Assembly: GCA_012845835.1 (NCBI GenBank)
Contig: JABAKD010000011.1
Coordinates: 312,501-376,500, forward strand
Reading direction: 5' to 3'
DNA from: Undaria pinnatifida
Lineage: Eukaryota > Sar > Phaeophyceae > Laminariales > Alariaceae
Length of the DNA stretch: 64,000 nucleotides
The translations under genes and the position numbers were made by a program. The notes beneath the pieces were generated by a model. It was not told where the DNA came from. It saw only the letters and a program-made list of their open reading frames with translations, and did not search any database. Every line of letters starts with the position of its first letter. Positions within the stretch are counted from its first letter, which is position 1. Shown here piece by piece: positions 45,101 to 61,197 of the stretch.

Positions 45101-48100
45101 GTATACATACAGGTGTTTTGCGGACGGGAGTGATATTTTTTACAGAGAAACTACACACCAAGAGGCGTCTGTGATTTTTATCTGTGTCATCGTTGTTGCA
45201 GCATTAGCAGTACTATTATGTCTGCCTTCCGATATTTCAATGTGCAGCGTATAGTACGTGTGTCAATCGCAAATAATTGACGAAGAAATAGCAGTACACA
45301 AAAAAAGAATATGCTTAGTAACGCAGCTTGCAAAGATGAGTATCGACCCTAAATTTGTCGAGGTCGCAGCTGACGTTGTTAGAATAATGCTATAAAATAA
45401 CGACATCCCCAACCAAATTTGACGAACAAAAACCATCCCAAAACCAAAAAAAAAAAGCCAAAAAACGCCCCTGCACATCTCATTCGTCAAACAGCGACTG
45501 AGCCCCCCTCTTCTGCAGCGGTATTATCATTTTACGTTTTACGAAACGTGTGAATGTGCTAAATTTTTCGGAACAGCATCCCGCACTTTCATGGCCACAT
45601 TACTTGGTCGCACTAGATGCACATATTTTTTTTGCTCATCCCCATCTACTTTCTTCGTTCTCCTTTCTCCTTTCTCCCTCCCTAGGCCTAACTCAGATCA
45701 GGGGTCAATATAAGCAGGTTCGGCCCCCCCCCCCCTCCCCCCCCGCCACTACACGGTGTACGCGCCTTCGTTTTTTATCGCAAGAAGACCGCTTCAGCCT
45801 AATATTTCCTCGCCGACTCGCATCGAATATAGTCTACTCACCCACGCTGGTGTTAATAGACGCTCGATTCTTTCCATTTATGTTGTAAATACTCTCAAAA
45901 GTCTACTACATACAGGTGTGGGTGTGATGCGGCACGACTTCACGCCACAACTCCTGGAAAGCCTTTTTTCCGACAAATTTACTTGGAGCTAGTATACGCA
46001 AGGATTTGGGGGCCCTAAAGCGGTCAAGTGTTGAGGAATTGGTGGGCTATTAGTCCGTTTGACCACTTGCAAAAGGTTAACCAATAGCTTACCTTACCCA
46101 AACTAAGCCTTATTACATAATGCTTTCCCCCCCTGAAACGGCGGGATAGCAGGTCGGCCGGATCTACGGGCCGCGGACCTGTCAATATCCAAGCGGTTTC
46201 ATTTCCTGGGGATACCGGGCGGAGGGTATTTTTCAAGTTCGACATGGGGGGAAAGCCTGATAAAGTTTACTGGTATTAGTATTGTGGATGGTGGGATTCG
46301 AACCCACGACCCCAAAAACCCATGGTCCTGCCGACGACGCCATTTGTTTAGGAATTGGTGGGGTATTAATCCGTTTGACCACTTGCAAAAGGTTAACCAA
46401 TAGCTTACCCAAACTAAGCATTATAACATAAGTCATCACCTAGCTATGCATATATATATTAGTGAGACTAATATCATACCATGTAGTTAGTTGATTTACG
46501 GAGGTGCCGACTATCCGACTCATCGTGTTTCCATACTTGCAGGAAGGACTGTTCAATGCGTTGTGCGCCGCTTTCTGTATTTTGGGCGTGCCGAAGGGCT
46601 GGTTTGGCTCGCTTCCCTCGCCTGGCTTTTGGTCGGCACGTCGGCTGGCCATCAGCTTGCTTCGGCAGCAGACTTGCCGACTAAAAATTTCACAAATAGT
46701 TGGCTAACAGCGCGTCCCGATTAGTTTTTTAGTAATGAAATCCTGCCGAATCACAGCTCTACGACAGCTCCGATCCACGTGGGACTCGATCCCGAAAACT
46801 AACGCTATTAATGGAGGCACACGACGGTAACCGCTACACAACCGGGGCGACATTATCCCAGCTTGTTCGATTGTTGTTGTTAATACCTTCATATCTGGTA
46901 CTAGACTATGGCCTTATTGTTAAGAAATTATAGTTCGCGGGGGGGGGGGGGGGTGGGGGGGGGGCGTGCAAGGGGGAGGGGGGAATGTCTAGAAGGTACT
47001 GGTCCGTTTGGCCACTGGTAATTGGTTAACCAATTACCAGTACCCAAAGTAAGGCTTATACGGGTGGCTACTTGTAACACCCCCCCCCCCTGGACCAGCG
47101 GGGTAGCAAGTCGGCCGGATATACATACGGGCGGACGTGCCAATCAATATCCACGCGGTTCCTATTCCTGGGGATGCCTGTGATAGGACTACTCTTCAGT
47201 GAGAAGACTACTCTTCAGGGAAAAGACTACTCTTCAGTGAGAAGACCACTCTTCAGTGAGAAGACTATTCTTCAGGGAGAAGACTATTCTTCAAGCTCGA
47301 CATGGGGGGAAGAAAGCCGTAAAAGTTTAGTACTGATGGATGGTGAGCTTCGAGCCCCTACCCACGACCCAGAAACCCACGGTCTGCCGACGACGCCATG
47401 TGTTAACCAAGGAAAAGGTATTGTCAATATAGACTAGTCCGTTTGACCACTGGTAAAGGTTATAAGGTTAACCACTATTATAGTGAGCTGCCCAGGTATC
47501 CGGCCTACCCTGCTATCTCGGCGGTCCAGAGGGGGAGGGCGTTTCATGGCTTCGTTTCGGCAGGCAATTGTTTAGCCATTCACCAGTGGTCGAACGGACT
47601 AGCACCTTCTAAATATTATACCAGGTAGTTCCTTCACATGTTACGAGTACTACTTTACTTTGCTGCTGCTATTATTACTCTTTGACGCAGGTGCCGATAC
47701 AATCAGCCGTGGTTTGTAACATGCGAAGCGTGATCATTATATAGAACACAACAATTCGTGTTATCATTAACGAGCTGGATGTATGTGGCCTCGAATATTT
47801 AATTCAACAATAAACGGGTCCCGCCAACCGTACTCTATGCCTGGTACACGGGGTATGCTGCTACAAAACATACAACAGTCAATCCATGCATTATATCTGC
47901 TATTATGATATTAATTACGAAGTGTTTCCTTGCTCGTAGCCGTTGCCTTTCCGCCCACTCTTGTTAAAATTGCTACGTACGTTACACGAGTTGTTCACCA
48001 GGCATTGTATGTAGTCACAACAATCCCTTTGGGACTGGAAAGGAGAAACAAAAAAGTCGGAACAACAGAAAATTACTGTTGTGGTTAGTATAATAATAGT

Positions 48101-51100
48101 GTTGTACCAGGTATGACCATCCGGCAATGATATCTAGATGTGCAGCATGCATGATGAGCTTTCAGCCTTAATGATTGTCAGAAAAGTACAGGAGGAGCAA
48201 AACCAAGGGAAACACATGACGCCTAAAACAGGAAAGCATGATGCATGTACTGTAATAGATAGAAAGCATGGACTCTACGTTGATTGATGACGATTATGTT
48301 GTAGTCTATATTTTTCATTTTTTGTAATATATGGTTACAGCATAATCGTCGTCCACACAGTCATAGGCACTCTTTTTCTTTTTTTTTGCAGTATTATGTG
48401 TAGAATGATAGCTAGAATGATAGGGGATGGATGTACCCTACGTGCTGAACGACACACGCGAGGCGCGGCATGTTGGTGGTGCTTGTGCTGGTTGTGTTGG
48501 TCGTTCGTTGTACGCTCTGTCCCTAGAGGTTGGAACAGACCGTACATGATATCGTCTACTCGTCGACTGTTAGCTCGCCATACAGTACAGTACAGTACAG
48601 TACAGTACAGTACAGTACAGAGTAGTGTGGCCCCGCCGTCAACAAGACAAAAAAACGCCTCCTCCGCAGAGCTGTATTAAGCAAACCTCCAAACCTTATT
48701 ATTGTGACACCAATTCCTCAACACATCCAATAATTCCTCCACTCAATCTACGTATGTACCGGTATATATTAATGTAGAGATTATTGTCGTGGCGCCCGCC
48801 GCTGAGCACGATTTCTTGGTCCGAATGACTTTTTACTCAATAATATCGGTAGTAGCATTTCTTGGTTCTTGCCGATGTAATAGTGTGCCTAAGTCTTGGT
48901 ATCCCATTTCCTTTCTGTGGCTGTGTTCTGTGCTGCGCTTGGGCCCCCATGACAAAATTCTGCGGCGACTACTTCTAATACACGTGGTACTGTATTAATT
49001 ACTTATTAATAGGGCGACAACTTTCAGGAAACTGAGGAAACTGAGGAAGGTCAGGAAACTGAGGAAGGTCGCTCCGAGCGCGCGCGCGAGCGATCGACGC
49101 ATATGCATACACACATATATAGAGAGAGAGATGCGCCTCGAAGCATATATCATGTCACACCATGGTCGGTCATGTTTCAATAGCTATGATGTTTCGCGCG
49201 ACATATTATACGCTGTGACTATATTGCTCTTCTCGTGTTTAGGTGTAATGCCGCCTGCAAACGTGGCCGGATGGGAAGGACAAAATAGAAATAATGTCAG
49301 AATGGAATGACTTATTTATTGTGTAAGGCAGACGGTTTTTTCATGCAGCAAGAAAGCAAACATTCTTTCCGTCGAACGAATTAATCAGTTTTTTTTCGTC
49401 GCGACAACATGTCGTCGGCACACAACAAAAACATACAAAATGTCGTCGACACCACTTTTCTTTTGTGTGCCAGCATCATCATTCTCACTCATTATTGTGT
49501 GCAGTGAAAGATATAAGGCAGTGAGAGATATAAGGCAGGCACATTCTATCCGTCGAAAATGTTGACCAGCTATTGGCGAGCGGCACAGTAGTGCACCCAA
49601 TAATATGTACCACAGGAAGGATACAAGTCTGGTAGATGTCAATGCGTGAAAAAAGTGATGATAAGATAAAAGTCAAAATGTTAAAACAGCGCAGTGCAAT
49701 CCGGTCGCCCCGGTGGTCTTCTTGTGGTTATCCTCGAATACTACTCGCAGCAGCGTTGGTCCTTGAGTTCGATCCCCACCGTGGTGAGATTTTTATTTTA
49801 TTTGCAAAAAAAGCAAAAAAATGATCAATAAACTGCTGAGAGCGCTTAGCAGAGTGGGTCAGGTACAATTCGATGCGAGTCGACAAGGGAAGAAAATGCT
49901 GGATTACCCTCGCGATAAAAATGATAAAAATGAAGGCGTTATTATACCGTAGTGGGGAGGGGCGAGGGGGGGCCGCTGTGTGATCCCGGATCTGAGTTTC
50001 TACTAGGAAGCAGCGCGAGAGAGTAATGCGAGGATAATAAATGGGATGAAGAAAAAAAAAAAGTGCTGTCCGTGGTCGCCACATACATGGTGTCGCTGGT
50101 TCAACGACCATCTTCGCCACAACAAAAAAGGGTCGTCAGTACAGCAGTGTTGTTTTTGCAACATATCGGCATCACTTACTTGTTAGTGGTATGTATGTTC
50201 GGCAGACATTCTTTCCGTCGGAGTACCTTTTTTTTCGTCAACTTTTCGCGCGAAGCACGCGGTACAATTACTGATGTGAACCATCGTCATGAGTGAGTGT
50301 CGGCTATGTTCCAAGTCTATCCACGCCATGTCAATCACTGTCCGTCGTCAAGCACAAAGAAAGACGTGTGGTCGGTACGATATAGTAGTAACGAAAGCAT
50401 GGTCGTCGCAGCTTCGTCGTCGCCCTCCAAAAATGATTGTCGTCGGCGGTACCTGTATAACGAACGCTTTTTTTGTGTCCACTGGTTGGTATTGGCGTCG
50501 TCAGGCAGACGTAAAAAATGGGGGTTCCATCGATCGATGTCGCAAAACGTATGTACCACTGCTGATGTAAGGATTACTACTAGTGCTGTAGTTTGCCTAA
50601 TGTTAAGGTATGCTATTGGTTACCCTTTGGCAAGTGGTCAAACGGATTAATACCCCACCAATTCCTTAACAAATGGCGTCGTCGGCAGGACCATGGGTTT
50701 TTGGGGTCGTGGGTTCGAATCCCACCATCCACAATACTAATACCAGTAAACTTTTTCAGGCTTTCCCCATCCATGTCGAACTTGAAAAAACTCTCCCCCC
50801 GGTATCCCCAGGAAATGAAACCGCTTGGATATTGACAGGTCCGCGGCCCGTATATCCGGCCGACCTGCTATCCCGCCGTTTCAGGGGGGGGGAGTGTTAT
50901 AAGTAGTTGTAAGGCTTAGTTTGGGGAAGTTATTGGTTAACCTTTTGCATGTGGTCAAACGGACTAATACCCCACCGATTCCTTAACACCAGCATGCAAT
51001 CACTATATTGTACGTTACAATTATCTGCGCGTCGAAACATGCGCGTAGCTTTTCCCAGCCAACCATCTTTATGAACAGCGGGCTTTTTTGGTTGATACTT

Positions 51101-51295
51101 CGTTGGAGATGCTGGAGGGCGGGGGGGGGAGGGGGCTCAGTCGCTGTTTGACCGACGAGATGCAGGGAGGGGCATTTACGTGTTTTGGTTTAGGAGGGTT
51201 TTTGATTCGTCGATGATGGTGATGACGTTATTTTATTAAGCGTCTTATTTTGCGCTGTTGTTTCTTGGTCATGTTTTTGCGATTGATGCACACGT

Positions 51296-51347
<52 letters not shown>

Positions 51348-54300
51348 GCTGTTGTTGTTGTTGTCACAATAACTCGCATAATCAAGCCCGTGGTCACAGG
51401 ACAGGCTCCAGTCACTCTTGTTATAAGTCTTAGTTTGGGTAAGCTATTGGTTAACCTTTTGCAAGTGGTCCAACGGACTAGTACCCCACTAATAACCTTA
51501 ACACTCAGGAGTGGAGGGATACCCCAGGGACAAAGCACGAACCAAAGGTGGTACACGCATATCTGGTATATCATAGCTGACGCAATTCATGCCCCGACGA
51601 ACTGTATGCTGAAAATTGCAATGTCGGATGGCAAATATTATCCCAATAATATTAATAAAGATATGTTTTCCCTTTGGGTCTTCAGAGGAAAAAACATAAT
51701 CGCAAAAACGCAACGATCGCAGCATCAACACTAATACCAAGCGACCCGGGCATTCGCGGCACAGTATCAGACTACGATAATAGATTGAGCACCCGGACTC
51801 AATGCGAAGATTTGCACGACACGTGCGCTGACACGGCGGGGGACCATTTTGTAACAACAACAAAATAAAAAGTTGCAAGGACCATGGCACTGGAACGTAA
51901 CTGTGAAATTAAAGGTGGGGGACACAGAGTGCCCCCTGCAGGTCTGCCAATTGATCAGGTCCTCGGAGAGTACTCACTTTCGTTCCTTCGTAGAGATGTA
52001 GCTTTATTCGTTTCCACCAGAGCCCGGGATAGCTTCTGAGATCGGAGGCGCGTGCCTCCGATCTAATTCCTAACTTCCCCGCATATAAACCGCCAACCTT
52101 ATCATACGAAACCCATCCAAATGATCTTAAATTCGGATACCTACAGGCCTTTCGAGGCCGTATCTTAACACTAGCCCACCCTGATGAGTCGCATATGCAG
52201 AAATATGGGAGATTCGGGGAAACTCCGGTTCTACGAACTAGACCATGAGTCGAAGATGCGGCTCCTCAAACCCCACTCCCACACCTCTAACCGTCTGGCT
52301 ATGGAGCCAGAAACATGCGACAAGACGACTGGGACTTGCATCTGCCCCTAGCCATCCGTCCTGCCGTCGACGCCACATGTGAAATTAAAGGTGGGGGACA
52401 CAGAGTGCCCCCTGCAGGTCTGCCAATTGAGCAGGTCCTCGGAGAGTACTCACTTTCGTTCCTTTGTAGAGATGTAGCTTTATTCGTTTCCACCAGAGCC
52501 CGGGATAGCTTCTGAGATCGGAGGCGCGTGCCTCCGATCTAATTCCTAACTTCCCCGCATATAAACCGCCAACCTTATCATACGAACCCCATCCAAACGA
52601 TCTTAAATTCGGATACCTACAGGCCTTTCGAGGCCGTATCTCAACATAACGACCACAGTAATAGCTCGATCCCTGTATAGTGCGGGTTGAGTAGTGCCGG
52701 TTGCCTGCTACAGTGCCTGTGAAATCGCTTGGCAAAAAATAAATGGGAACAACAAGTAGATGCAGTACATGCGGATTAGTGCCGGTTGTCGTGATAGTGC
52801 TGGTATTTCCCTCTATAGTGCACATACCGCCACTATAGAGGGACCGCTACTGCTATTACTACTAATAATGAGAATCCAACGATACTGGACACCAGGGCGA
52901 AAGTAGGCGTTCAGCTTGTGGTGCGAACCCCCGCAGCCCCCCCCGGAGGGCTGCCGCAAGGGCCCCCGGAGGCCACCCGGAGGCCGTTTTGTATTTCATA
53001 TATATGCGTCAACATACTCAAAATGTGCTTCTGGCCCGCTTGATAAATCGTCTTTTGGACGTGGTGCCGGCTACCCTAGAACTTATGTTATGCTTTTTAC
53101 AAAATAAAACAAGGACCAAATGACGATCAATAAGCATCAGATATACTGTGAGGTACTTGCACAGGAGCCACAGCGTCCCCGGCCTGGTGTGCGTATGGAA
53201 CAGGTCCTCGTTTGTCACTAACCTGCGCGAAGCATTGTTGTAGTAGTAAGAAGAACAGCTTCATTTGTCCAATTCAGTTCTCTAATGGACTCTGATCAAG
53301 CAATCGGGCCTCGCCCTGAACAAAAAAGAAACGGCTCGGCCCAAGCGTCGCCCTGAACTCGAAACAAATCGCTCGGTCCAAGTCCCTTCCTGGATCCGAA
53401 AGAGACTACTCGGGCCAAGCCTCGCCCTGAGCCCTAAAGAAACCCCTTACCCTGTAGCCTACCACGCTACCACCACAGCCAAAAACATCTACTGTATCTC
53501 GTTCCTGTGTTGGTTACTTGTGTGCGCCTCACGGAGGCATCATCGAAAATGATAGCCGCTTCTCGGAGGATGTCATTCCACTTTTCGTGAGATGAGATGA
53601 ACGCCATCCTTCCTGTGTGGCCAAGAGGGTCGTGTCAAGAGCTCAAGGCGCGCCGCCGAAAGACCGTTGCGGGCGGAAGTTTTAATGCTGTTCTGAGCCG
53701 AGAACCCGCGCTCCCACCCGATGTGTGTGTGTGTTCTTCACATTAAACCGTTCTTCTACTCGTCGACATCCAGCACACCCAGTGTCCGTACTGATTCTTC
53801 ATGTACGAGTTGTTTGAGGCCTGCTTCGAGCTGTTAGAGGCCTACTTCGTCCTCAGGCGGAGGAAAACGGCAAAAATCCAATCTAATTCTCAAGGGAAGT
53901 GAAGTAGTGCGCGCAAAAAGAGGAAACCAGCCCCAAATATAGCACCTACGACCAAAATAACACAAAAACAAATTCGCCTACGGTGCAATGGGGCGTTCGT
54001 GGTGCCAGCCGCACCCTGCCTTCGGCGCGTTTGCGGTGAAAAAACGGCATTTACGACGAATTTTAAAGAAAACGTGCGCCCCAGCTCCACATTTGACCGC
54101 CTATTTCACGTCCTGCTCGATGCTTCCACAACAAACTATGGAGCTCCATGAACCATTAAAACGTAAACAAAAAAATGATTGCAAGAATGGCTACCCCTGT
54201 AATCTTGTATGATAATCTAATACTCCAGTATGATCTAATATGATCTAACATGATCTAATATGATCTAATATGATCTAATAGGATCTCATATATATGATCA

Positions 54301-57295
54301 AATAGGATCTTCTACAATCTAATAGGATCTTACATGATCTACAATGATATATCTCGTAATATTATGTGATGTGATCTGCAGTGTAGTATGATCTATTAAA
54401 AATATGATCTAATATGGTATAATATGATATACGCCGATCGCCCCGGTGATCTAGTGGTGAAGCTGTAACAGTGCTAAGGATGGGTTCAGCCGTACGAATC
54501 TATCAAATCTATCGGTACGGACAATTTTAATTTGACAGAGAGACCAACTGCCGAGAGAGCGCTTTATAGCGTGGGTATTGGTACAATGTAATTCGACGCA
54601 AGTCGACGAGGGAGGAAAGGGCTGAAGTCTTCTCGAAATAAAAACGATCGCGCGTACCGTAGTGGGAAGGGGGAAGAATAGCCTGCTTATTAGTGACCCC
54701 GGATATGAGCTACTCGCACGTCTAGGGAGGGAGAAGGACAAAGACAAGGACAAAGACAAAGACAAAGACAAAGACAAAGACAAAGACAAAGACAAAGACA
54801 AAGACAAAGACAAAGACAAAGACAAAGACAAAGACAAAGACAAAGACAAAGACAAAGACAAAGACAAAGACAAAGACAAAGACAAAGACAAAGACAAAGA
54901 CAAAGACAAAGACAAAGACAAAGACAAAGACAAAGACAAAGACAAAGACAAAGACAAAGACAACGACAAAGACAAAGGCAAAGACAAAGACAAACACGAA
55001 CACGAACACGAACACAAACACAAAGACAAAGACAAAAGACAAAAGACAAAGTGCATAGAAAGTAGGTGGGAGAAACAAAAAAACTAGAATGGTGTAATAT
55101 GGTACATACAGTAGCAGGAGCCTGGTACATTGTCGCCCCGGCCCTGGGGTACGAAAAGGGCAGGGACTGCTCTATTGATTGGTTGTATTTTAGGTTGTAT
55201 ATCACTATCTAGTACACACCGCTTATTCACTTACTAAGTGACTATGTGAATAAATGTATAAGCGACTCTAATTGATTAATTAACTACTTCCGAAGTATGT
55301 GATTAAACGACTAAGTGATCTGGTGGATAGTATCCACTAGACTGCTTAACCACTTTCTGAGTGATTGTGCCCACTAGATCACTGGGCCACTGAGTAAGTG
55401 ACTACGTGGTCTAGCAGATTAATGCCATACCCCCAACCAAACCCTGGTACCTTTGGGCTCGTAGCATCAATCCGTCACAGCGGCATTGGTGTTCGTGGCG
55501 AACCCCTTGCTACGCACTGCTCGATGGGAAACCAAAAACCTTCGAGCACGAAAAAAAAAAACATCCCAGTGAGAGTTAACGATCATGCCCTCACTTCAAC
55601 CCGCTCACATCAGGCTCAAGAAACGGACAATCTACCCACCAATGTTATAAGGCTTAGTTTGGGTAAGCTATGGGTTAACCTTTGGCAAGTGGTCAAACGG
55701 ACTAATACCCCACTAAATACCTTAACAAATGGCGTCGTCGACAGACCATGGGTTTTTTGGATCGTGGGTCCGAATCCCACCATCCACAATAATAATAAAC
55801 TTTTTTAGACTTTCCCCGTGTCGAACTTGAAAAAAACTCTAATACCCTCCCCGGGGTATCCCCAGGAAATGAAACTGCTTGGATATTGACAGGTCCGCCC
55901 GTGGATCCGGTCGACCTGGTATCCCGCCGTTTCAGGGGGGAAGAGTATTATAAGGCTTAGTTTGGGTAAGCTACTACTGTATTGTTGGTTAACTTTTTGC
56001 AAGTGGTCAAACGGACTAATACCCCACTAATGCCTTAACACCAAGCAATAGTCACCTAGCAATCAATCACTTGTGTCAAAGCACTATTTGACTATTAATA
56101 AGTGGTCTATCTTGCGGATAGTGCTATATAACCAACAGGCTGGAGAAAACGTGCGAATGATATTTAGTGTCATTGTTTGTTGCTGTCCGACCATAAGCCA
56201 CATGTCATCGTCACCTTCAACGCCGACCACTCATCATAAATATTCACAAAAACATTCACAAAACACAGTTGAACATAAAACACGAAGGATAGATCAGATC
56301 AGATCCCTATTGATGATCTATATATGATCTATAGATGATCTGTGTCTTTTAGGGCAGATAAATCCCTGGCCTATATGATCCGTATGGCCTGAATAGGTAA
56401 CGTTGCAAGGTGGGAGCCGTATGATCTGCGTGACCTAGAACATTTTTCATTCCTGGGTTGGAGCTGTCCTACACAGATCCTGCACAGCATACCATAACCA
56501 CAGCTGTAGCATCTATATGATCTCTATTATCAATATTATCTATAGATCATATATGACATATACGGAGTATGATCTATATGATCTATATGATCTATATGAA
56601 CTTTATGATCTATATGATATGTATGATATGTATGAACTATATGATCTATATGCTCTGTATGATCTAGATCGTCATATGCCCTTTGTGTGAAACGTTCACA
56701 GAAGTATGTGGAAGAAAACGCAATAGGATAGAGGGAGGGAAGGAGTGCCTGCTGTGCTCCCTCGGACCTGAGTTACGACGGCGGAGAGAGTAGCTGAAAA
56801 ACTGCAAAGATAATAGATGGGGTGGGGAAGGGAGGGAAGAGGAGCGCTTGCTGTTTGATGTTTGATATGTCACCCCCGGATTTAAGATACCCAAAAGTCG
56901 GGAGGGGGAGGGGGAGGGGGTAGGAGTTCCTGCTATGTTACCCCGGATCTGAGGTACGACGACGGAGAGAGGTGCTTAAAAACTCCAAAGATAGGAGATG
57001 GGATGGGGAGGGTAGGGGGGAGGAGGGCCTGCTGTTTTGATAAATGTGACCCCGGGTCTGAGGTACGAAAAGTGCGGGAGCTGGAGGAAGAATGCAAAGA
57101 TAATATCGATAGACGCGGTGGAAAACAAATACTTCAAAGTATTAGGTTCCACGTGCATCTTGAACTCTTGATCACGCCGTCGGAAAGAATGCCTAAAAAG
57201 TAATGGCAATACTTCGTATAATAATGTATTATTAGTATAAAAAGGTTGTAATCCATGTGTTATCTACTCACTACTGCTGTCAATTCACGTACGAC

Positions 57296-57335
<40 letters not shown>

Positions 57336-60300
57336 AGAGTCCCTGGCAAGTAGTTTGGTATGAAAATCGACCATTCATTATTATTGCGAATTTGTTTTTG
57401 TTCCCGTGTCTGTCTTTTGCACATTTATTTTCTTTTGGCCATTAATTAGGTGCCAGCGCATCCATGATCATTTTCCCATTTTTCATTTTTATTTTTCCAT
57501 CCCATTTATTTCCTCGCAAACTACTCTCGCGCTCCCTCCCAGTAGTAACTCAGATCCGGGGTCGCATAGTGGGCGCTCCTCCCCCCTCCCCACTGCGGTA
57601 CGTGCCTTCATTTTTATCGCGAGAAGAATTCAACATTTTCTTCCCCCGTCGACTCGCGTCGAATTGTACCTACCCACGCTGCTACGTAGGCGCTCTCAGC
57701 AGTTGATCCCTTTTTGTTTTTGTTTTTTGGCATTTTTGCAACTAAAGTCAAGTACGAGTATCATCACGGTAAGAATCGAACTCAAGGACCAACGGTATCT
57801 AATATCACGGAGATCCATTGCTAACAGGGGTAAATGCCTTATCATGCCTTCCTTATCATCACCATAATATTCTATATATAGGGTTTTATAGTTTCCGCGC
57901 ACAGACTGACTAACATCACCCTGTTGACCCTGATAGCTACACTGTAGTTGTAAGGGGAGTCGCCGACCTATATCCTTAATGAGGACACACAACTCGTAAT
58001 GCGCGCGATCGGAGTATCACACACAGCTTGCAAAGATGAGTTTCGACGAAATCTTCGATCTCACAGCTGGAGTGTATTTTCATTTTCTATAATATATATA
58101 TATATTGTTGCAAAAAATTCACCGGAAATGTCCCATAATTTTTGCACTATCTCGGCCCGAACACCAATTTTTTTATTTTTTGTTTTTGCGCCGTCACCCT
58201 AGGGGCTATGCGAACAATTCAAGCTATCGTTTACCGTTATCGACAATTGACAGAGTTATGCCCCCATAGGCATTAAATGACCCCTGTTAGCAATAAATCT
58301 CCGTAACATTATTAGTATTCGAGGGTAACCACTAGACCACACGGGGCGACCGGCTATGGTTAGGGTTATAATATTAATATTGCTATTGTTATAAACATAT
58401 TAATTGATACAATATACCTGGTGCGAGAGAACGCCTCACTGAACCTCATTGCCTCATTGTTTCGTGCCTCGTTGGTTGGTATTATTTCGGCTGGCGTCGA
58501 CACCCTTTCGTTTATGCGTTCGAAAACGAATGGGTAGGGTATCAATTATTATAGCAGGACACACTTACTTACTCGTTGCATCGCGGGCAATCAGCTACTA
58601 CGAAGTATTGCATCATCATTGCTATGCGTCGCCATCCAAGGACATAAGTATTTAATATGAGAGGAGATGCGTAGCATGGGATTGAACGCCGGTCGCTCAG
58701 ACGCGTTGCTCCTAGAAAGTATAGGCTGGAGAAAACACAACATGCAGTGTAATGGAAGAAAACCAACGGAAACCCACAAAACAGGAAACACTCTTTATCG
58801 CAAAATTGTCAACTGAACCCGCAATTTCGTCGACAACTATTAGAATTTAGAGGAGGGAATTAATTATGTTTCCTCGTTGTACTTCGTCCCTTCATCAGGT
58901 TGCTGGTTGGTGGTTGGTGGTGTTTTTTTTCTTGTCTGCATCGACGCACACTCGTTTGTTTTTGCGTTTAAAAACGAGTGAGTGAGTGATCAGTTATTAA
59001 AGCACAGGACACACTTATTGTATCGCGGCCGCAAGCTACGATATAGGTGCCGCTCCATTTTTTGGGGGGACTCTTGTCTTGAGAAGTTTTGCATCAGTAA
59101 GAACAAAATGTCTTACTTACTCTCAACAAAATGCCTTACTTAGTCAATCCCAAAAACTGTGATCGATTAACGCAGAAACAAAACCGCTACCCGACTATGA
59201 ACAATTGTTGTCCAATTCGACGCAGGACGCGAGCTACCATAGAGGTGCAGCACCTCTTTTTTTCGGAGGATTCATCAATTTGGGGTCTTATTAAGATCTT
59301 ATATTAAGATTCTCTCCACCAAACACTGACTTACGAAAAAATATAACCGCTATGATACTGGATGAACCATTCATACCATGGCCTAGGTAGGTACACGACG
59401 ATAATCATGCCAAAAAAAAACGGCGGACTTCCTAGGATGATTGTGTATTTTCTAAGGAGACCCATTATTCAAAAACAAAAAAAAACACAAAAAAAGGGCA
59501 TGCCGCTCTTCTTGTAGCACGCGTCACATGGGCTCCTGGGTATCAAAAACTACTTTTAGTTTTTTAAAGGATCGAAATTCCGACGACGTTGGGGTTAAGG
59601 TAGCTTACCTCATCACATTTCCACGATTGCCCTTATTCTCAAGACGTATACTTGTATGAGCCAGAAAGCGGTAGTCTATACTTTAATACCTACATCGTAG
59701 AAGGCGTCGGGCTAAGAGCCTAAGATCGGCAATAAAATAGCAGGCATATGCCACGTCCTGTAGAAGTGCACTCACGTCTTCGGGGAGACAACTGACAAAT
59801 TGGTAGCTACTAATTGGAATTAGAGCACAATCCTTTGCTGCATGCAGCGGTTCTCAAGTGGTATTCATAGATGCGACTCTCTAAAATAAATATAAAAAAA
59901 TACTAATTGTAACGCATACATTAAGCTGACGACGGTTACATTTTTTTTTTTTTTTTTTTTTTTTCATCCTACGGCGGATGGGAAAAATAAAGCTTTAGCT
60001 CACCACACTTCCACGTATTTTCATACGCGTCGTGTGTCGATTTAACTCAGTTGCTACAACTATCCTGCGACAGCTGCATTAATAATATATTTTCTCACAC
60101 TAAACCCGTTCCAGAAAACGCGGGTCGGTGCAGGTGTTGAGGCATTTAGTGGGGTATTAGTCCGTTTGATCACTTGCAAAAGGTTAACCAATAGCTTACT
60201 CAAACTAAGCCTTACAACTACTTATAACACCCCCCCCCCCTGAAACGGCGGGATACCAGGTCGACCGGATATACGGGCGGACCTGTCAATATCCGAGCGG

Positions 60301-61197
60301 TTTCATTTCCTGGGGATACCCCGGGGAGGGTATTCAAGTTCGACATGGGGAAAGCCTGATTTTATTATTATTGTGGATGGTGGGATTTGAACCCACGACC
60401 CAAAAAACCCATGGTCTGTCGACGACGCCATTTGTTGAGGTATTTAGTGGGGTATTAGTACTTGCAAAAGGTTAACTAACAGCTTACCCAAACTAAGCCT
60501 TATAACACAGGTGTGTCCTTTACACGTCGACGGCTAAAATAAAGATGTTAGAGGGTTCACGGAAAATTGTATCAGTAACGCGAGTTTCGGGTGTGGGGTT
60601 GCGCGCGTTGGTTGTGTATGTCGCGTGTATCCACGGTCGTGTCACCTCATAGTCTACCTTGTAGATACTACTAGATGTTAGGCGGCATGCCATACTTCGC
60701 ATTAGTGGTAACGATACCATTGTTGACACATCATACCGGTAATCCGAGCACGCGAGCGTAAGGCTGTGATTGTTTGGTGTGCGCGTCTCGTGTCGCCTTA
60801 TCACCCAGATGCTACAGTAGTAGCCGCCATCCCCCTCCCCCCTCCCGTGACGTTTTGCGTTTGCAGTATTGCGCTTGCCGTACCCGTCTTTATCCGCCCA
60901 GATATTGGGCGTCATCCCTCTGTGATATTGTTTACCGTGTTCAAGCCGAATGTTCTGCAAAGGTACTCTAAGGTATTGTCTTGCTATTTTCGAACACGCT
61001 AGTGGGAGGTTGTAGTGCCTTGTTTGGCGTGTGTGTCACCTTATGGCCCAGATGATAGGCGTCATCCCCCTGTCGTCTTTCGCGTTCACGTCAACCCCAT
61101 CCCGCTCCACCAGCCTTCTCAGCAGATCCAGCACTCCAAAGCTCGCTAATCGCCAGGGATCGGTGTCGATGCTCGCCGTCTGCATCATACGCGCCAT
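35373..61197 (-). CDS. Gene B: ankyrin-repeat protein, four exons, 20 kb first intron
   Basis: On the minus strand the exons are 61179-61040, 40955-40786, 36895-36733 and 35562-35373; phases match at all joins (663 nt, 220 residues plus TAA). The spliced product is an unbroken run of about five 33-residue ankyrin repeats, with junctions such as GMTPIIWAI/RNGHEDVASYL and VDEFG/NTPLHYAACRG restoring the register exactly. The first exon may instead start at an in-frame ATG at 61197-61195 (MARMMQ), giving 226 residues; otherwise it continues from an exon further upstream. Introns are 20.1, 3.9 and 1.2 kb. Ankyrin repeats are protein-protein interaction modules; no other domain shows, so the partner and location are unknown. 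It converges with gene A. Confidence 0.8.
36036..36100. repeat. (GTT)n microsatellite
   Basis: About 60 bp of GTT/TTTGTT in gene B intron 3. Confidence 0.95.
36118..36173. repeat. 12-bp perfect inverted repeat
   Basis: CGTTTTAATACC and GGTATTAAAACG separated by about 30 bp. It could fold as a hairpin or be a small element terminus. Confidence 0.6.
36733..36895 (-). CDS. Gene B exon 3: ankyrin repeats 3-4
   Basis: NTPLHYAACRGVLNIIVRLL, AGGAEPDMANVQGSTPLHKA and CMFGQNAVVKKLV(E), between cgcccccag and a perfect gtgagt donor. Two TPLH motifs are spaced one repeat apart. Confidence 0.9.
37157..37290. repeat. (ACATG)n pentamer array
   Basis: ACATG/ACGTG units, then three 22-bp units 'acatgacgagaacagcg'. 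In gene B intron 2. Confidence 0.9.
37775..37880. repeat. 'gacagtatgacag' degenerate repeat
   Basis: Imperfect 9-10 bp units. A separate 25-bp triplicate 'cagtaatagtgtgcata' lies at 38278-38352. Confidence 0.75.
38880..39060. repeat. Interspersed family 4 copy plus TCAATTTGGA repeat
   Basis: 'tcatcctccggcagatgga' to 'cgtattttcatgcaggtcgt' matches 59960-60045 and, more weakly, 20950-21040. It runs into seven units of TCAATTTGGA. Confidence 0.6.
39710..39905. repeat. TTAGTCTGG tandem repeat
   Basis: About 20 units of 9-10 bp with base variants. In gene B intron 2. Confidence 0.9.
40408..40672. repeat. ATTCCAACC 9-bp tandem repeat
   Basis: About 29 units (CCATTCCAA with T variants) ending about 110 bp before gene B exon 2's donor. 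Confidence 0.95.
40786..40955 (-). CDS. Gene B exon 2: ankyrin repeats 2-3
   Basis: Acceptor ttaactag, then (R)NGHEDVASYLLDKEANVEAF and YAGMRALHHACSNSHEGCIA and LLLDRGADANAVDEF(G), donor gtgagg. It has classical ankyrin helices and the hairpin Asp-Asn-Ala pattern. Confidence 0.88.
41105..41160 (-). pseudogene. Fragmentary copy of gene B exon 2
   Basis: The minus strand reads 'cagaagccagcgtcgaagcc' then 'ttcgga', matching the DKEANVEAFG part of exon 2 ('gaagccaacgtggaagcctt'). It lies about 200 bp upstream in the intron and is too short to encode a repeat. Confidence 0.6.
41508..41691. repeat. 14-bp tandem repeat TACTACTAATAGGC
   Basis: Thirteen near-perfect units. Each contains TACTAAT, close to the TACTAAC branch-point consensus on the plus strand, but the host gene is on the minus strand. 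Confidence 0.95.
42012..42345. repeat. 10-bp tandem repeat TACAATATAG
   Basis: About 33 units with variants (TACAACACAG, TACCAATATAG). Confidence 0.95.
42470..42600 (-). repeat. Interspersed family 2 copy, minus strand
   Basis: 'gatgaagatttcgtcgaaac' then 'gcatctttgcaagctgtgtg' is the reverse complement of the core at 58015-58060. Confidence 0.75.
42640..43215. repeat. ~100-bp tandem repeat, six units
   Basis: Each unit has 'cgaacact', 'gtaggctgagattgacacaa', 'acgtgaaattcgggagtagt' and 'acagaacatcta'. Minus-strand frames repeat 'CQSQPTF' from this array. Confidence 0.9.
43785..43892. repeat. 12-bp tandem repeat GTCGCCTAAGAT
   Basis: Nine near-perfect units. Confidence 0.95.
43990..44025. 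repeat. (CTC)n microsatellite
   Basis: About 12 CTC units. Confidence 0.9.
44093..44350 (-). repeat. Interspersed family 1 copy, minus strand
   Basis: The reverse complement of 'gctccgtcccggcatagtag' and 'ggcgcttcgc.cttggtgca' is recognisable. It lacks the 5' third of the unit. Confidence 0.75.
45295..45400 (+). repeat. Interspersed family 2 copy, short
   Basis: 'cgcagcttgcaaagatgagt' then 'gtcgcagctgacgttgttag'. Confidence 0.65.
45655..45890 (-). repeat. SINE body, minus strand, 3' part
   Basis: 'taactcagatcaggggtcaa', a G-run region, 'tttatcgcaagaagac' and 'gccgactcgcatcgaat' match the body of the full SINE at 49703-50062 in reverse complement. The tRNA-like head is not evident. Confidence 0.65.
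46029..46428 (-). mobile_element. TRIM-like mini-LTR element, family T1 (copy 1)
   Basis: Direct terminal repeats 46029-46117 and 46345-46428 flank a ~230-bp core with no coding. On the minus strand the repeat starts TGTTATAA-like and ends CCTTAACA-like. It is followed after two bases by TGGCGTCGTCGGC (candidate primer-binding site, 46331-46343), and the other repeat is preceded by a G-rich tract. The core also holds a tRNA T-arm, gtgggttcgaatcccac (minus strand, 46291-46307). Confidence 0.8.
46765..46855 (-). repeat. tRNA-derived SINE head, minus strand
   Basis: The minus strand reads 'gtcgccccggttgtgtagcg' (A-box-like) and 'gggatcgagtcccacgtgga' (B-box GATCGAGTCCC). The body is lost. Confidence 0.65.
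46986..47630 (-). mobile_element. Degenerate T1 element with internal tandem expansion
   Basis: Recognisable pieces in T1 order: 'ggttaaccaattaccagtac', 'ccagcggggtagcaagtcgg', 'gttcctattcctggggatgc', 'gctcgacatgggggga', and 'gtctgccgacgacgccatgt' (primer-site complement). About five units of a 19-21 bp repeat (gaagactactcttcagg) at 47187-47295 sit inside the core. A reversed terminal-repeat piece lies at 47560-47630. Confidence 0.65.
48580..48622. repeat. (TACAG)n microsatellite
   Basis: Eight units of ACAGT. A short 'aaactgaggaaggtcagg' repeat lies at 49027-49072. Confidence 0.9.
49703..50062 (+). mobile_element. tRNA-derived SINE, full-length copy with A-rich tail
   Basis: The head reads gtcgccccggtggtcttctt (A-box region GGTGGTCTTCTTGTGG) and ccttgagttcgatccccac (B-box GAGTTCGATCC), in tRNA spacing. 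A body of about 270 bp follows ('caattcgatgcgagtcgac', 'gtagtggggaggggcg', 'gtgatcccggatctgagtt'), then an A-rich end 'gaagaaaaaaaaaaag'. No coding. It needs LINE machinery in trans, as is usual for SINEs. Related copies lie at 45655, 46765, 54435, 56700, 57475 and 58279. Confidence 0.8.
50601..50988 (+). mobile_element. TRIM-like T1 element (copy 2)
   Basis: Terminal repeats 50601-50671 (5' truncated) and 50895-50988. TGGCGTCGTCGGC begins at 50674, two bases after the first repeat. 'tttcaggggggggga' immediately precedes the second repeat, like a polypurine tract. T-arm at about 50710-50727. No target duplication is obvious. Confidence 0.8.
51295..51365. repeat. (GTT)n microsatellite
   Basis: About 65 bp of GTT. 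Confidence 0.95.
51419..51503 (+). mobile_element. Solo T1 terminal repeat
   Basis: 85 bp from tgttataagtcttagtttgg to ataaccttaaca with no core or partner repeat. It is the expected product of recombination between LTRs. Confidence 0.8.
51902..52646 (-). mobile_element. TRIM-like element, family T2, with TAAC target duplication
   Basis: Two 269-bp direct repeats (51902-52170 and 52378-52646) differ at only about five positions and flank a 207-bp non-coding core. The repeats begin TGTGAAATT and end TTAACA/TCAACA. The flanks are taac on both sides. On the minus strand the core begins TGTGGCGTCGACGGCAGG, the same type of primer-binding site as T1, and a purine-rich AGGGTGGGC precedes the other repeat. 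Each repeat contains an 11-bp perfect hairpin (agatcggaggc/gcctccgatct, at about 52040 and 52515) and a UUCG-loop hairpin near its end (ggcctttcgaggcc). Confidence 0.88.
52655..52850. repeat. Interspersed family 5 copy
   Basis: Collinear words with 4440-4860. The T2 element is inserted at its edge (taac|gacc). Confidence 0.55.
52925..52990. repeat. Short GC-rich repeat 'ccccggaggc'
   Basis: Three or four units of cccggagg(cc) around 52940-52985. Unclassified. Confidence 0.5.
53290..53440. repeat. ~50-bp degenerate repeat 'gcctcgccctgaac'
   Basis: Three or four units of 'tcgccctgaactcgaaa' plus 'ctcgg.ccaag'. No gene is seen around it (53030-54210). Confidence 0.55.
54215..54430. repeat. 10-bp repeat TATGATCTAA
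   Basis: Tandem and dispersed units. A second block at 56290-56670 has 'tatatgatcta' units. Confidence 0.85.
54435..54735 (+). mobile_element. SINE copy whose tail passes into a (GACAAA)n array
   Basis: The head 'gatcgccccggtgatctagt' with A-box TGATCTAGTGGTGAAGC, and the body ('ttcgacgcaagtcgacgagg', 'gtaccgtagtgggaagggg', 'gaccccggatatgag') match 49703-50062. The 3' end is 'gagggagaaggacaaagac', the first units of the adjoining microsatellite. Confidence 0.75.
54736..55050. repeat. (GACAAA)n microsatellite
   Basis: About 50 units, nearly perfect. Reads as poly-(Lys-Asp) or, on the minus strand, poly-(Leu-Ser/Cys-Leu/Phe-Val); these frames are artefacts. Confidence 0.95.
55643..56040 (+). 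mobile_element. TRIM-like T1 element (copy 3), with CCAA target duplication
   Basis: Terminal repeats 55643-55727 (85 bp) and 55946-56040 (with a ~10-bp insertion). Primer-site-like tggcgtcgtcgacag starts at 55730. The T-arm gtgggtccgaatcccac has one loop change. 'ttcaggggggaaga' precedes the right repeat. The flanks are ccaa|tgttat and taaca|ccaa. Confidence 0.85.
56290..56670. repeat. 'tatatgatcta' degenerate array
   Basis: Several blocks of TATGATCTA/TATGATATG, interrupted by unique sequence at 56340-56510. Confidence 0.75.
56700..57090 (+). repeat. Three tandem SINE 3' ends
   Basis: The ~125-bp unit 'gggagg.aggagtgcctgct', 'cccggatctgaggtacgac', 'aactgcaaagataataga', 'tggggtgggg' occurs three times. 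It corresponds to the SINE body's last third and A-rich tail. Confidence 0.7.
57297..57335. repeat. (TAG)n microsatellite
   Basis: Thirteen units. Confidence 0.95.
57475..57835 (-). mobile_element. tRNA-derived SINE, near full-length, minus strand
   Basis: In reverse complement: head with B-box 'ccttgagttcgattcttacc', body 'attcgacgcgagtcgacggg', 'gtaccgcagtggggaggggg', 'gaccccggatctgagttact', and an A-rich tail (plus strand tttcatttttatttttcc). Collinear with 49703-50062. Confidence 0.8.
57950..58105 (+). repeat. Interspersed family 2, best-preserved copy
   Basis: 'ggggagtcgccgacctatat' to 'gagtgtattttcattttcta'. No coding and no tRNA-like boxes. Confidence 0.8.
58279..58353 (-). repeat. 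tRNA-derived SINE head, minus strand
   Basis: The minus strand reads 'gtcgccccgtgtggtctagt' (A-box TGGTCTAGTGG), 'ggttaccctcgaatactaat' and 'agatttattgctaacagggg', the region upstream of the B-box in its sister copies. Confidence 0.65.
58665..58745 (-). repeat. Other tRNA-like sequence, minus strand
   Basis: 'gcgtctgagcgaccggcgtt' then 'caatcccatgctacgc' ends like a tRNA T-arm/acceptor. It cannot be folded into a complete cloverleaf by eye. Confidence 0.4.
59225..59530. repeat. Interspersed family 6 copy ('ccatggcctaggta')
   Basis: Shares 'gaggtgca.c.cctttttttc', 'cttc(a)attttgggt', 'attc.ataccatggcctaggta', 'catgc.aaaaaaa' and 'cattattcaaaaaca' in order with 34790-35045. Partial copy at 39955-40080. 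Confidence 0.6.
59940..60070. repeat. Poly-T and interspersed family 4 copy
   Basis: 24 T residues, then 'catcctacggcggatgggaa' to 'cgtgtgtcgatttaactcag'. Sister pieces at 20950-21040 and 38880-38990 also follow T-rich runs, so the minus-strand view is an element ending in poly(A). Confidence 0.6.
60135..60507 (-). mobile_element. TRIM-like T1 element (copy 4), with CAGG target duplication
   Basis: Terminal repeats 60135-60229 and 60433-60507. The T-arm on the minus strand is gtgggttcaaatcccac. The primer-site-like sequence (minus) tggcgtcgtcgacag is next to the right repeat. A C-run (minus-strand G-run) lies at 60229-60240 next to the left repeat. The flanks are cagg|tgttg and taaca|cagg. 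Confidence 0.85.
60775..60935 (-). pseudogene. Decayed copies of the 3' edge of gene B exon 1
   Basis: 'tgtcgccttatcacccagat' at about 60790 and 'ccgcccagatattgggcgtc' at about 60895 resemble 61034-61070 (GMTPIIWAIR plus donor). No usable reading frame extends from them. Confidence 0.6.
61040..61197 (-). CDS. Gene B exon 1: first ankyrin repeat
   Basis: Reads (MARMMQ)TASIDTDPWRLASFG, then VLDLLRRLVERDGVDVNAKD and GMTPIIWAI, ending with AG of a split Arg codon before gtgaca. The 3' boundary is firm by phase. The 5' boundary is either an acceptor at 61180-61181 or the ATG at 61197. Two decayed copies flank it. Confidence 0.75.

Follow-up and report, generated by a model that had tools for sequence, protein, structure and literature searches.

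Miniature retrotransposons that carry sequence from RNA polymerase III (Pol III) genes have been described; among terminal-repeat retrotransposons in miniature (TRIMs), Cassandra and Helenus provide examples of promoters of the Pol III type (PMC10886601). In Helenus, a tRNA-like part with an A-box (TRGCY...YGG) and a B-box (GGTTC) lies inside the long terminal repeats (LTRs) (Kojima 2024). The excerpted paper on Ectocarpus transposons gives LTR elements of 3.9-14.5 kb and, in those excerpts, names no TRIM (PMC12477816), and our literature search found no relevant published account of TRIMs in stramenopiles. Here we describe T1, a family of short LTR elements in a 64,000-nucleotide stretch of Undaria pinnatifida DNA (contig JABAKD010000011.1, positions 312,501 to 376,500), which we call the window and number from its first letter. 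A preliminary description of this DNA had read T1 as an LTR mini-retrotransposon and a Pol III unit at the same time. We are highly confident that T1 is a TRIM primed by the host's tRNA-Ser(AGA) and that its T-arm is a separate module rather than one of the two boxes of a complete Pol III promoter.

Architecture of T1 and its serine tRNA primer

We located T1 copies by blastn, using the copy C stretch 50590-51000 as query against the 64-kb window, and obtained five copies and one single LTR, all within 46029-60507; the preliminary description had the solo LTR right but counted four copies, the fifth being the degraded copy B. Copy A (46029-46428, minus strand) is a complete LTR-interior-LTR element whose flanks, CAAG and TAAG, match at three of four bases. 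Copy B (46995-47462, minus) has a disrupted T-arm and a tandem-repeat insert at about 47184-47290 that consists of imperfect TACTCTTCAGTGAGAAGAC units. Copy C (50601-50988, plus) has a rearranged 5' LTR start and no clean target duplication, and the single LTR (51419-51503, plus) is flanked by CTCT and CTCA, again matching at three of four bases. The target duplications first proposed as ccaa and cagg are exact at copy D (55643-56040, plus; CCAA at 55639-55642 and 56041-56044) and copy E (60135-60507, minus; CAGG at 60131-60134 and 60508-60511).

Apart from the damaged copy B and the 5' LTR start of copy C, the LTRs are about 85 bp long with TG...CA ends, and the parts follow in the order LTR, 2-nt spacer, primer-binding site (PBS), interior, G-rich polypurine tract, 3' LTR. 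The ends, the spacing and the G-rich tract are therefore all present as initially described; read from the sequence, the polypurine tract occupies 50883-50894 (plus) in copy C, where it adjoins the 3' LTR, and 55934-55945 (plus) in copy D. LTR pairs differ at about 5-7% of aligned bases in copies A, D and E and at 17% in copy C. At 373-402 bp, the elements in the window are too short to encode the enzymes of an LTR element.

Beyond the window we searched the source genome (511 Mb in 68 contigs), labelling contigs C1, C2, C18 and C24 and loci L001 onward. T1 forms tandem LTR-interior-LTR arrays at L002, L023, L027 and L088, and in the three-LTR arrays (L023, L027 and L088) one 4-bp duplication flanks the whole array at its outer ends. 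Because arrays hide outer ends, a chained scan for target duplications superseded a first, unchained one (6 of 34, duplicates included). With 12 rows of unclear ends dropped, 9 of the 19 scorable T1-type LTR chains, copies D and E among them, have a 4-bp duplication and none has one of 2, 3, 5 or 6 bp, whereas the shuffled-flank control for the 19 chains gave a mean of 0.6 and a largest value of 4. The check on duplication length that the preliminary description had proposed thus returned 4 bp.

T1 has paired LTRs, a PBS, a polypurine tract and a duplication of fixed length, is shorter than 1 kb and non-coding, and is a TRIM by these features. The T-arm and the TGGC motif could also belong to a tRNA-derived short interspersed element (SINE) with chance repeats, as the preliminary description had allowed, but the paired LTRs, the PBS with its 2-nt spacer, the polypurine tract and the fixed 4-bp duplications speak against it, as does the absence of any tRNA gene call in the window. 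We rejected a SINE identity of T1 on the LTRs, polypurine tract and duplications, and consider its probability negligible. ARAGORN calls of long-intron tRNAs at L002 and L023 were set aside as artefacts.

The primer site had been placed correctly, but it is longer than first read. In copies C (50674-50691, plus; 2 nt after the 5' LTR) and A (46325-46342, minus), the identical 18-nt sequence TGGCGTCGTCGGCAGGAC is the exact complement, 18 of 18 nt, of the 3' end of host tRNA-Ser(AGA) plus CCA. A search for a tRNA with a matching 3' end had been set as a check beforehand; it returned this tRNA, and at some PBSs antisense sequence of the same tRNA continues the match. In copies D (55730-55747, plus) and E (60413-60430, minus), a motif search identified the variant PBS TGGCGTCGTCGACAGACC, which pairs with tRNA-Ser(AGA) over 11 contiguous nt only.

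The 13-mer PBS core TGGCGTCGTCGGC occurs 12 times in the window at up to two mismatches (1.16 expected) and, as an exact match, at 2940 places genome-wide compared to 83 for the reversed pattern. From these we sampled 100 places, all on C1 and fetched regardless of their neighbours, and compared 122 PBS sites with at most one mismatch from this sample and the window after removing duplicate loci. At 82 of the 122 sites, CA precedes TGG by exactly 2 nt. Counted from TGG, 55 sites match antisense tRNA over exactly 18 nt, 57 over fewer and 10 over more, the last number being a lower bound since copies with an altered base 58 were scored as 18. By eye, several unrelated LTR types have this PBS in common. 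At L069, the LTR end and PBS form a short tandem repeat with three PBS cores 26 nt apart.

Six tRNA-Ser(AGA) genes, all without CCA, were found in the genome with a pattern for the tRNA-Ser 3' end: five on C24 (L146, L147, L149 and L150 within 6 kb, L151 about 170 kb off) and one on C18 (L140). Each has a T run of at least 5 within 30 nt downstream and the 3' end GTCCTGCCGACGACG. The C24 cluster also holds a seventh gene-like place, L148, which lacks CCA and whose anticodon arm is odd. Four tRNA-Ser(CGA) genes (L195-L198), also without CCA, have the 3' end CCGTCGACG.

The architecture, the duplication length, the host tRNA, its exact complementarity and the copying into tRNA-Ser with CCA are direct observations. 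In the mechanism that we propose, an autonomous LTR element would supply the proteins that reverse-transcribe an RNA spanning the 5' to the 3' LTR. Host tRNA-Ser(AGA) would anneal to the 18-nt PBS and prime the first strand, and the G-rich polypurine tract would prime the second. Plus-strand copying would stop at A58 of the primer, as it does in human immunodeficiency virus (HIV), which would yield the 18-nt PBS, and integrase would insert the product, creating the 4-bp duplication. Both the choice of polymerase and the mobilisation of T1 in trans are our inferences.

The T-arm module and the Pol III reading

The perfect T-arm that had been noted in the core of T1 holds for two copies: GTGGGTTCGAATCCCAC is matched exactly in copies C (50709-50725, plus) and A (46291-46307, minus), with one change in copies D (55764-55780, plus) and E (60380-60396, minus), and is absent from copy B. 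At up to three mismatches the window contains 4 matches compared to 0.10 expected, and genome-wide a pattern with ten free positions found the module at 1611 places, its reversed control at none. For all of the first 20 modules listed on C2, a tRNA-Ser PBS and LTR end precede the module by 35-40 nt; the PBS beside them has 0-2 mismatches of 13, and the LTRs, judged by eye, are T1-type in 19 cases and T2-like (T2 being a second family, described below) in one. In a PBS-anchored sample of 45 modules, one of them counted twice, uniformity is 91% or higher in columns 44-72 with the exception of 57 (73%), 59 (51%) and 60 (50%), and most of the downstream columns 76-85 are fairly uniform too. Among 100 listed of the 1611 places, the minor-base share at positions 53-62 is 6, 5, 0, 4, 25, 2, 44, 46, 5 and 4%. 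The variable positions 57, 59 and 60 are just those left open by the T-loop/B-box rule GGTTCRANNCC, which 74 of these 100 places fit letter for letter. Near 77 module-less PBS sites, a B-box at up to one mismatch was found 4 times (two of them in one palindromic locus), and in the controls once in 77 upstream and never in 77 shuffled stretches. The T-arm is a real, high-copy module separate from the PBS, with T-loop-like variation.

The D-arm-like sequence proposed as a potential A-box did not hold up, as it is the PBS itself. The position of A14 is C in all 45 modules and in all 20 further copies selected by their B-box. G18/G19 is altered in 11 of those 20 and replaced by GA in 11 of the 45 modules, and in 37 of the 45 at least five consecutive T lie between PBS and T-loop. 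By comparison, the longest internal T run in 36 tRNA genes of the genome, organelle-type ones included, is 2 in 21 genes, 3 in 13 and 4 in 2; the first run of at least four T within 30 nt after these genes is T6-T9 in 20, T4 in 7, T5 in 1, longer in 2 and absent in 6. Because A14 is absent, G18/G19 is changed in part of the copies and a T5 or longer run precedes the T-arm in most, the Pol III half of the dual reading is, on the sequence, not supported, while the host tRNA match upholds its LTR half. T1 could still be imagined as a TRIMp3-like element in which the PBS as A-box and the T-arm as B-box form an internal Pol III promoter for the replicating RNA. The B-box-like stretch 35-40 nt after TGGC in 20 of 20 cases, its B-box-type variation and the precedents of Cassandra and Helenus would suit this idea, but the missing A14 (45 of 45 and 20 of 20) and the G18/G19 changes do not. 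Neither do the T runs of a kind that stands after the tRNA-Ser(AGA) genes and exceeds anything inside the 36 tRNA genes. The PBS, moreover, is accounted for by tRNA-Ser and is common to the 77 module-less sites, and a start near it would presumably leave almost no 5' LTR in the RNA. We regard such a promoter as very improbable.

Three other roles for the module may be considered. It could work in RNA by mimicking a T-arm, either in pairing to the primer tRNA or in a fold of the leader, much as retroviruses make contacts outside the PBS. Its position directly after the PBS, and the T-stem, in which all five pairs are kept in 31, four in 9 and one in 1 of the 41 modules scored (4 of the 45 were skipped), would agree with this, as would the contacts beyond the 18-nt PBS that are known for HIV-1 (PMC13191261). 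However, only one of the 41 modules has a two-sided compensatory change, the most frequent T-loop, TTCGATC, leaves a shorter stretch able to pair with the T-loop of tRNA-Ser (by eye, not computed), and 77 sites with this PBS have no module, so that we find an RNA role unlikely. Since the T-stem changes are uncompensated, a DNA site or a relic fits better than an RNA hairpin. As a DNA site, the module could be a B-box-only site bound by TFIIIC, like extra-TFIIIC sites, that affects RNA output or chromatin, with no transcription by Pol III. The B-box-type variation, the uncompensated T-stem, as expected of a DNA site, and the lack of a usable A-box would point this way, but the modules derive from few founder haplotypes and passive inheritance could yield equal uniformity; judged from sequence features, this role is possible, if somewhat doubtful. 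A stronger contender, which we nevertheless put short of even chances, is that a captured tRNA fragment has persisted here as a passive relic. Read-through copies (next section) show repeated tRNA capture at exactly this place, and with columns 76-85 mostly uniform as well, youth alone might explain much. Against a relic, the founder-level differences within the uniform block hit the three free T-loop positions, and the module occurs with more than one LTR type (L015, L065, L090 and L175, by eye). Most likely, the module is a captured tRNA T-arm that was kept either passively or as a putative B-box-type protein-binding site.

Two sources for the module were tried and rejected. The T-arm of human tRNA-Leu has the same 19 nt as the module; a donor role of tRNA-Leu was not borne out, as the search for a host tRNA with the corresponding GTGGATG acceptor gave no more matches than its control (7 in each). 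The antisense anticodon arm of tRNA-Ser was dismissed because the module variation, judged by eye, does not track anticodons.

Several observations weigh against our identification of T1 and of its module. Many copies have a variant PBS (TGGCGTCGTCGACAGACC, TGGCGTCGTCAGC) that is only partly complementary to the tRNA genes seen. A frequent variant, TGGCGTCGTCGACA(G/A)ACC, occurs at 55730 and 60418 in the window and at L023, L027, L088, L179, L188, L191 and L192, and another serine tRNA may be the primer for variant-PBS copies. No target duplication was found in 10 of the 19 scorable chains, nor a 4-bp duplication in any of six single-LTR chains. No autonomous partner was found in a scan that covered 10 of the 37 stop-to-stop open reading frames of at least 180 aa in the window (no Pfam match), the other 27 and reverse transcriptases elsewhere in the genome lying outside it. 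As for the module, three haplotypes (GATC, GAAT and AAAT) make up 83 of the 100 listed places, so that the T-loop pattern rests on few independent changes, and AT/TC at 59-60 could be a single event. Columns 43, 73 and 75, just outside the chosen block, vary too, the T-stem lacks compensation (the two-sided change in 1 of 41), and no donor tRNA was found with the 5'-end pattern GTGGATG.

Read-through copies of the primer tRNA

In HIV, plus-strand synthesis ends at 1-methyladenosine 58 (m1A58), and a minor product is seen at position 37 (PMC13191261). Inosine at position 34 (I34) is read as G, and N2,N2-dimethylguanosine 26 (m2,2G26) and m1A58 cause misincorporation (PMC11417395). At L023, L078, L098, L104, L109, L115 and L117, the PBS continues into antisense tRNA-Ser with CCA. 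Further read-through loci are the CCA-bearing copies among L127-L172 and L199-L214, and those at L129, L141, L166, L210, L211 and L214 stand, by eye, beside T1-type LTRs. A tRNA-Ser 3'-end pattern with A58 fixed matched 46 places genome-wide, 45 of which were read.

We aligned 65 rows to tRNA-Ser(AGA), of which 55 have CCA (two of these being one palindromic locus, and 13 matching only a few bases past 18 nt, possibly by chance). The most divergent columns in the 55 are 34 (27 of 30), 26 (11 of 17) and 58 (12 of 55, all 12 falling in the 21 rows that do not come from the A58-fixed pattern, which supplied the other 34), and at every other column at most 5 rows differ. The copied tRNA ends cluster at gene indices 25-29 (17 of 55), 33-37 (12) and 0-1, that is, full length (8); a further 10 ends at 62-64 sit at the analysis cut-off and have no evidential value. 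Inheritance among copies inflates all of these read-through counts.

A second pattern, comprising D-arm and anticodon with positions 25, 26 and 34 left free, matched 38 places genome-wide. Eleven of them were classed as genes for their lack of CCA (six AGA, four CGA and one TGA), all with G26, and 25 of the 27 non-gene places do not have G26 (A in 18, T in 6 and C in 1). Base 34 at these 27 places is G in 15, C in 10, A in 1 and T in 1. Of the 27 places, 16 have CCA, 1 has it in changed form and 1 is unreadable there; the other 9 include six of the G34 places, and a real tRNA-Ser gene with G34 is a conceivable alternative source of G34. Because inosine arises only from A34, the CGA type serves as a built-in control: C34 is present in 6 of 6 copies with a CGA-type 3' end, whereas the eight copies with an AGA-type 3' end have G34 in 6, A34 in 1 and C34 in 1. 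These 14 copies were not selected on base 58, which is T in 9, A in 3, G in 1 and deleted in 1; m1A is read as T. A CGA anticodon is combined with an AGA-type 3' end at L127, L142, L162 and L205; cross-priming or correction of the PBS may lie behind this combination.

The differences at 26, 34 and 58 and the ends of the copied tRNAs fit the known stops and misreadings. We consider it likely that LTR elements, T1 included, have repeatedly copied their serine-tRNA primer past the normal stop and stored the copy at the PBS. The DNA would then keep the state of the mature tRNA, namely CCA, G for A34 (inosine), A, T or C for G26 (m2,2G26) and often T for A58 (m1A58), with ends near 26 and 34-37. 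Our literature search found no published report of tRNA-modification traces in read-through PBS copies. If this reading is true, a genome holds a fossil record both of tRNA modification and of the isoacceptors that primed each family, and the primer tRNA and a lineage's I34, m2,2G26 and m1A58 become testable from the genome alone in unculturable organisms. Read-through copies directly identify the primer tRNA down to the isoacceptor, and their pattern agrees with the view that m1A58 sets the 18-nt PBS. At L013 (C1:447500-449000), a palindrome at about 235-1150 has LTR and PBS in opposite orientation on both sides of the 3' half of a tRNA-Ser, which looks like a head-to-head joining of two primer-copied ends.

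The window also contains T2, a TRIM-like family separate from T1 (51902-52646, minus), with 269-bp LTRs, an interior of about 207 bp and the duplication TAAC; its LTRs are 98.1% identical by blastn and 97.4% with manually set boundaries. Its PBS, TGGCGTCGACGGCAGGAC (52358-52375, minus), is the exact complement of the tRNA-Ser(CGA) 3' end plus CCA. With the T1 PBS fitting tRNA-Ser(AGA), two families in one window therefore correspond to two serine isoacceptors. Judged by eye, the T1 T-arm module accompanies other LTR types at L015 (PBS at 406), L065 (PBS at -1081), L090 and L175, and T1-type LTRs enclose other interiors at L072 and L080; modules seem to have been exchanged between families.

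T1 among described small LTR elements

With retrozymes T1 shares the small LTR-type format and the PBS. A search of the window against Rfam at gathering thresholds gave no matches, which led us to reject a retrozyme or other catalytic RNA. A permissive search of 45900-60700 (E up to 5) gave seven: four weak matches of the tmRNA model to the T-arm and three further ones that did not reach the gathering threshold. Unlike in retrozymes, no hammerhead ribozyme is among the matches of either search. Cassandra is likewise a TRIM with sequence related to a Pol III gene, in its case a 5S rRNA promoter in the LTRs, but T1 has no 5S sequence, in line with the empty Rfam result at gathering thresholds.

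Helenus comes closer: it is likewise a very small LTR element, contains a tRNA-derived sequence that resembles a B-box and, in animals, makes 4-bp duplications (PMC10886601). Compared to Helenus and TRIMp3, the tRNA-like part of T1 lies between PBS and polypurine tract and not in the LTRs, and it comprises a B-box and T-arm only, with no canonical A-box. Because of this interior position and the non-canonical A-box, T1 is not a Helenus element by the definition of that family. TRIM and SMART elements match T1 in the length below 1 kb, the lack of genes, the short LTRs, PBS, polypurine tract and target duplication, and the tandem arrangement (Wukong); T1 is set apart by its tRNA-Ser primer, its 4-bp duplication and its conserved interior T-arm module. 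T1 is thus of a known kind, a TRIM, in this case one that matches a host tRNA exactly and has a conserved interior T-arm in place of a Pol III promoter in the LTR.

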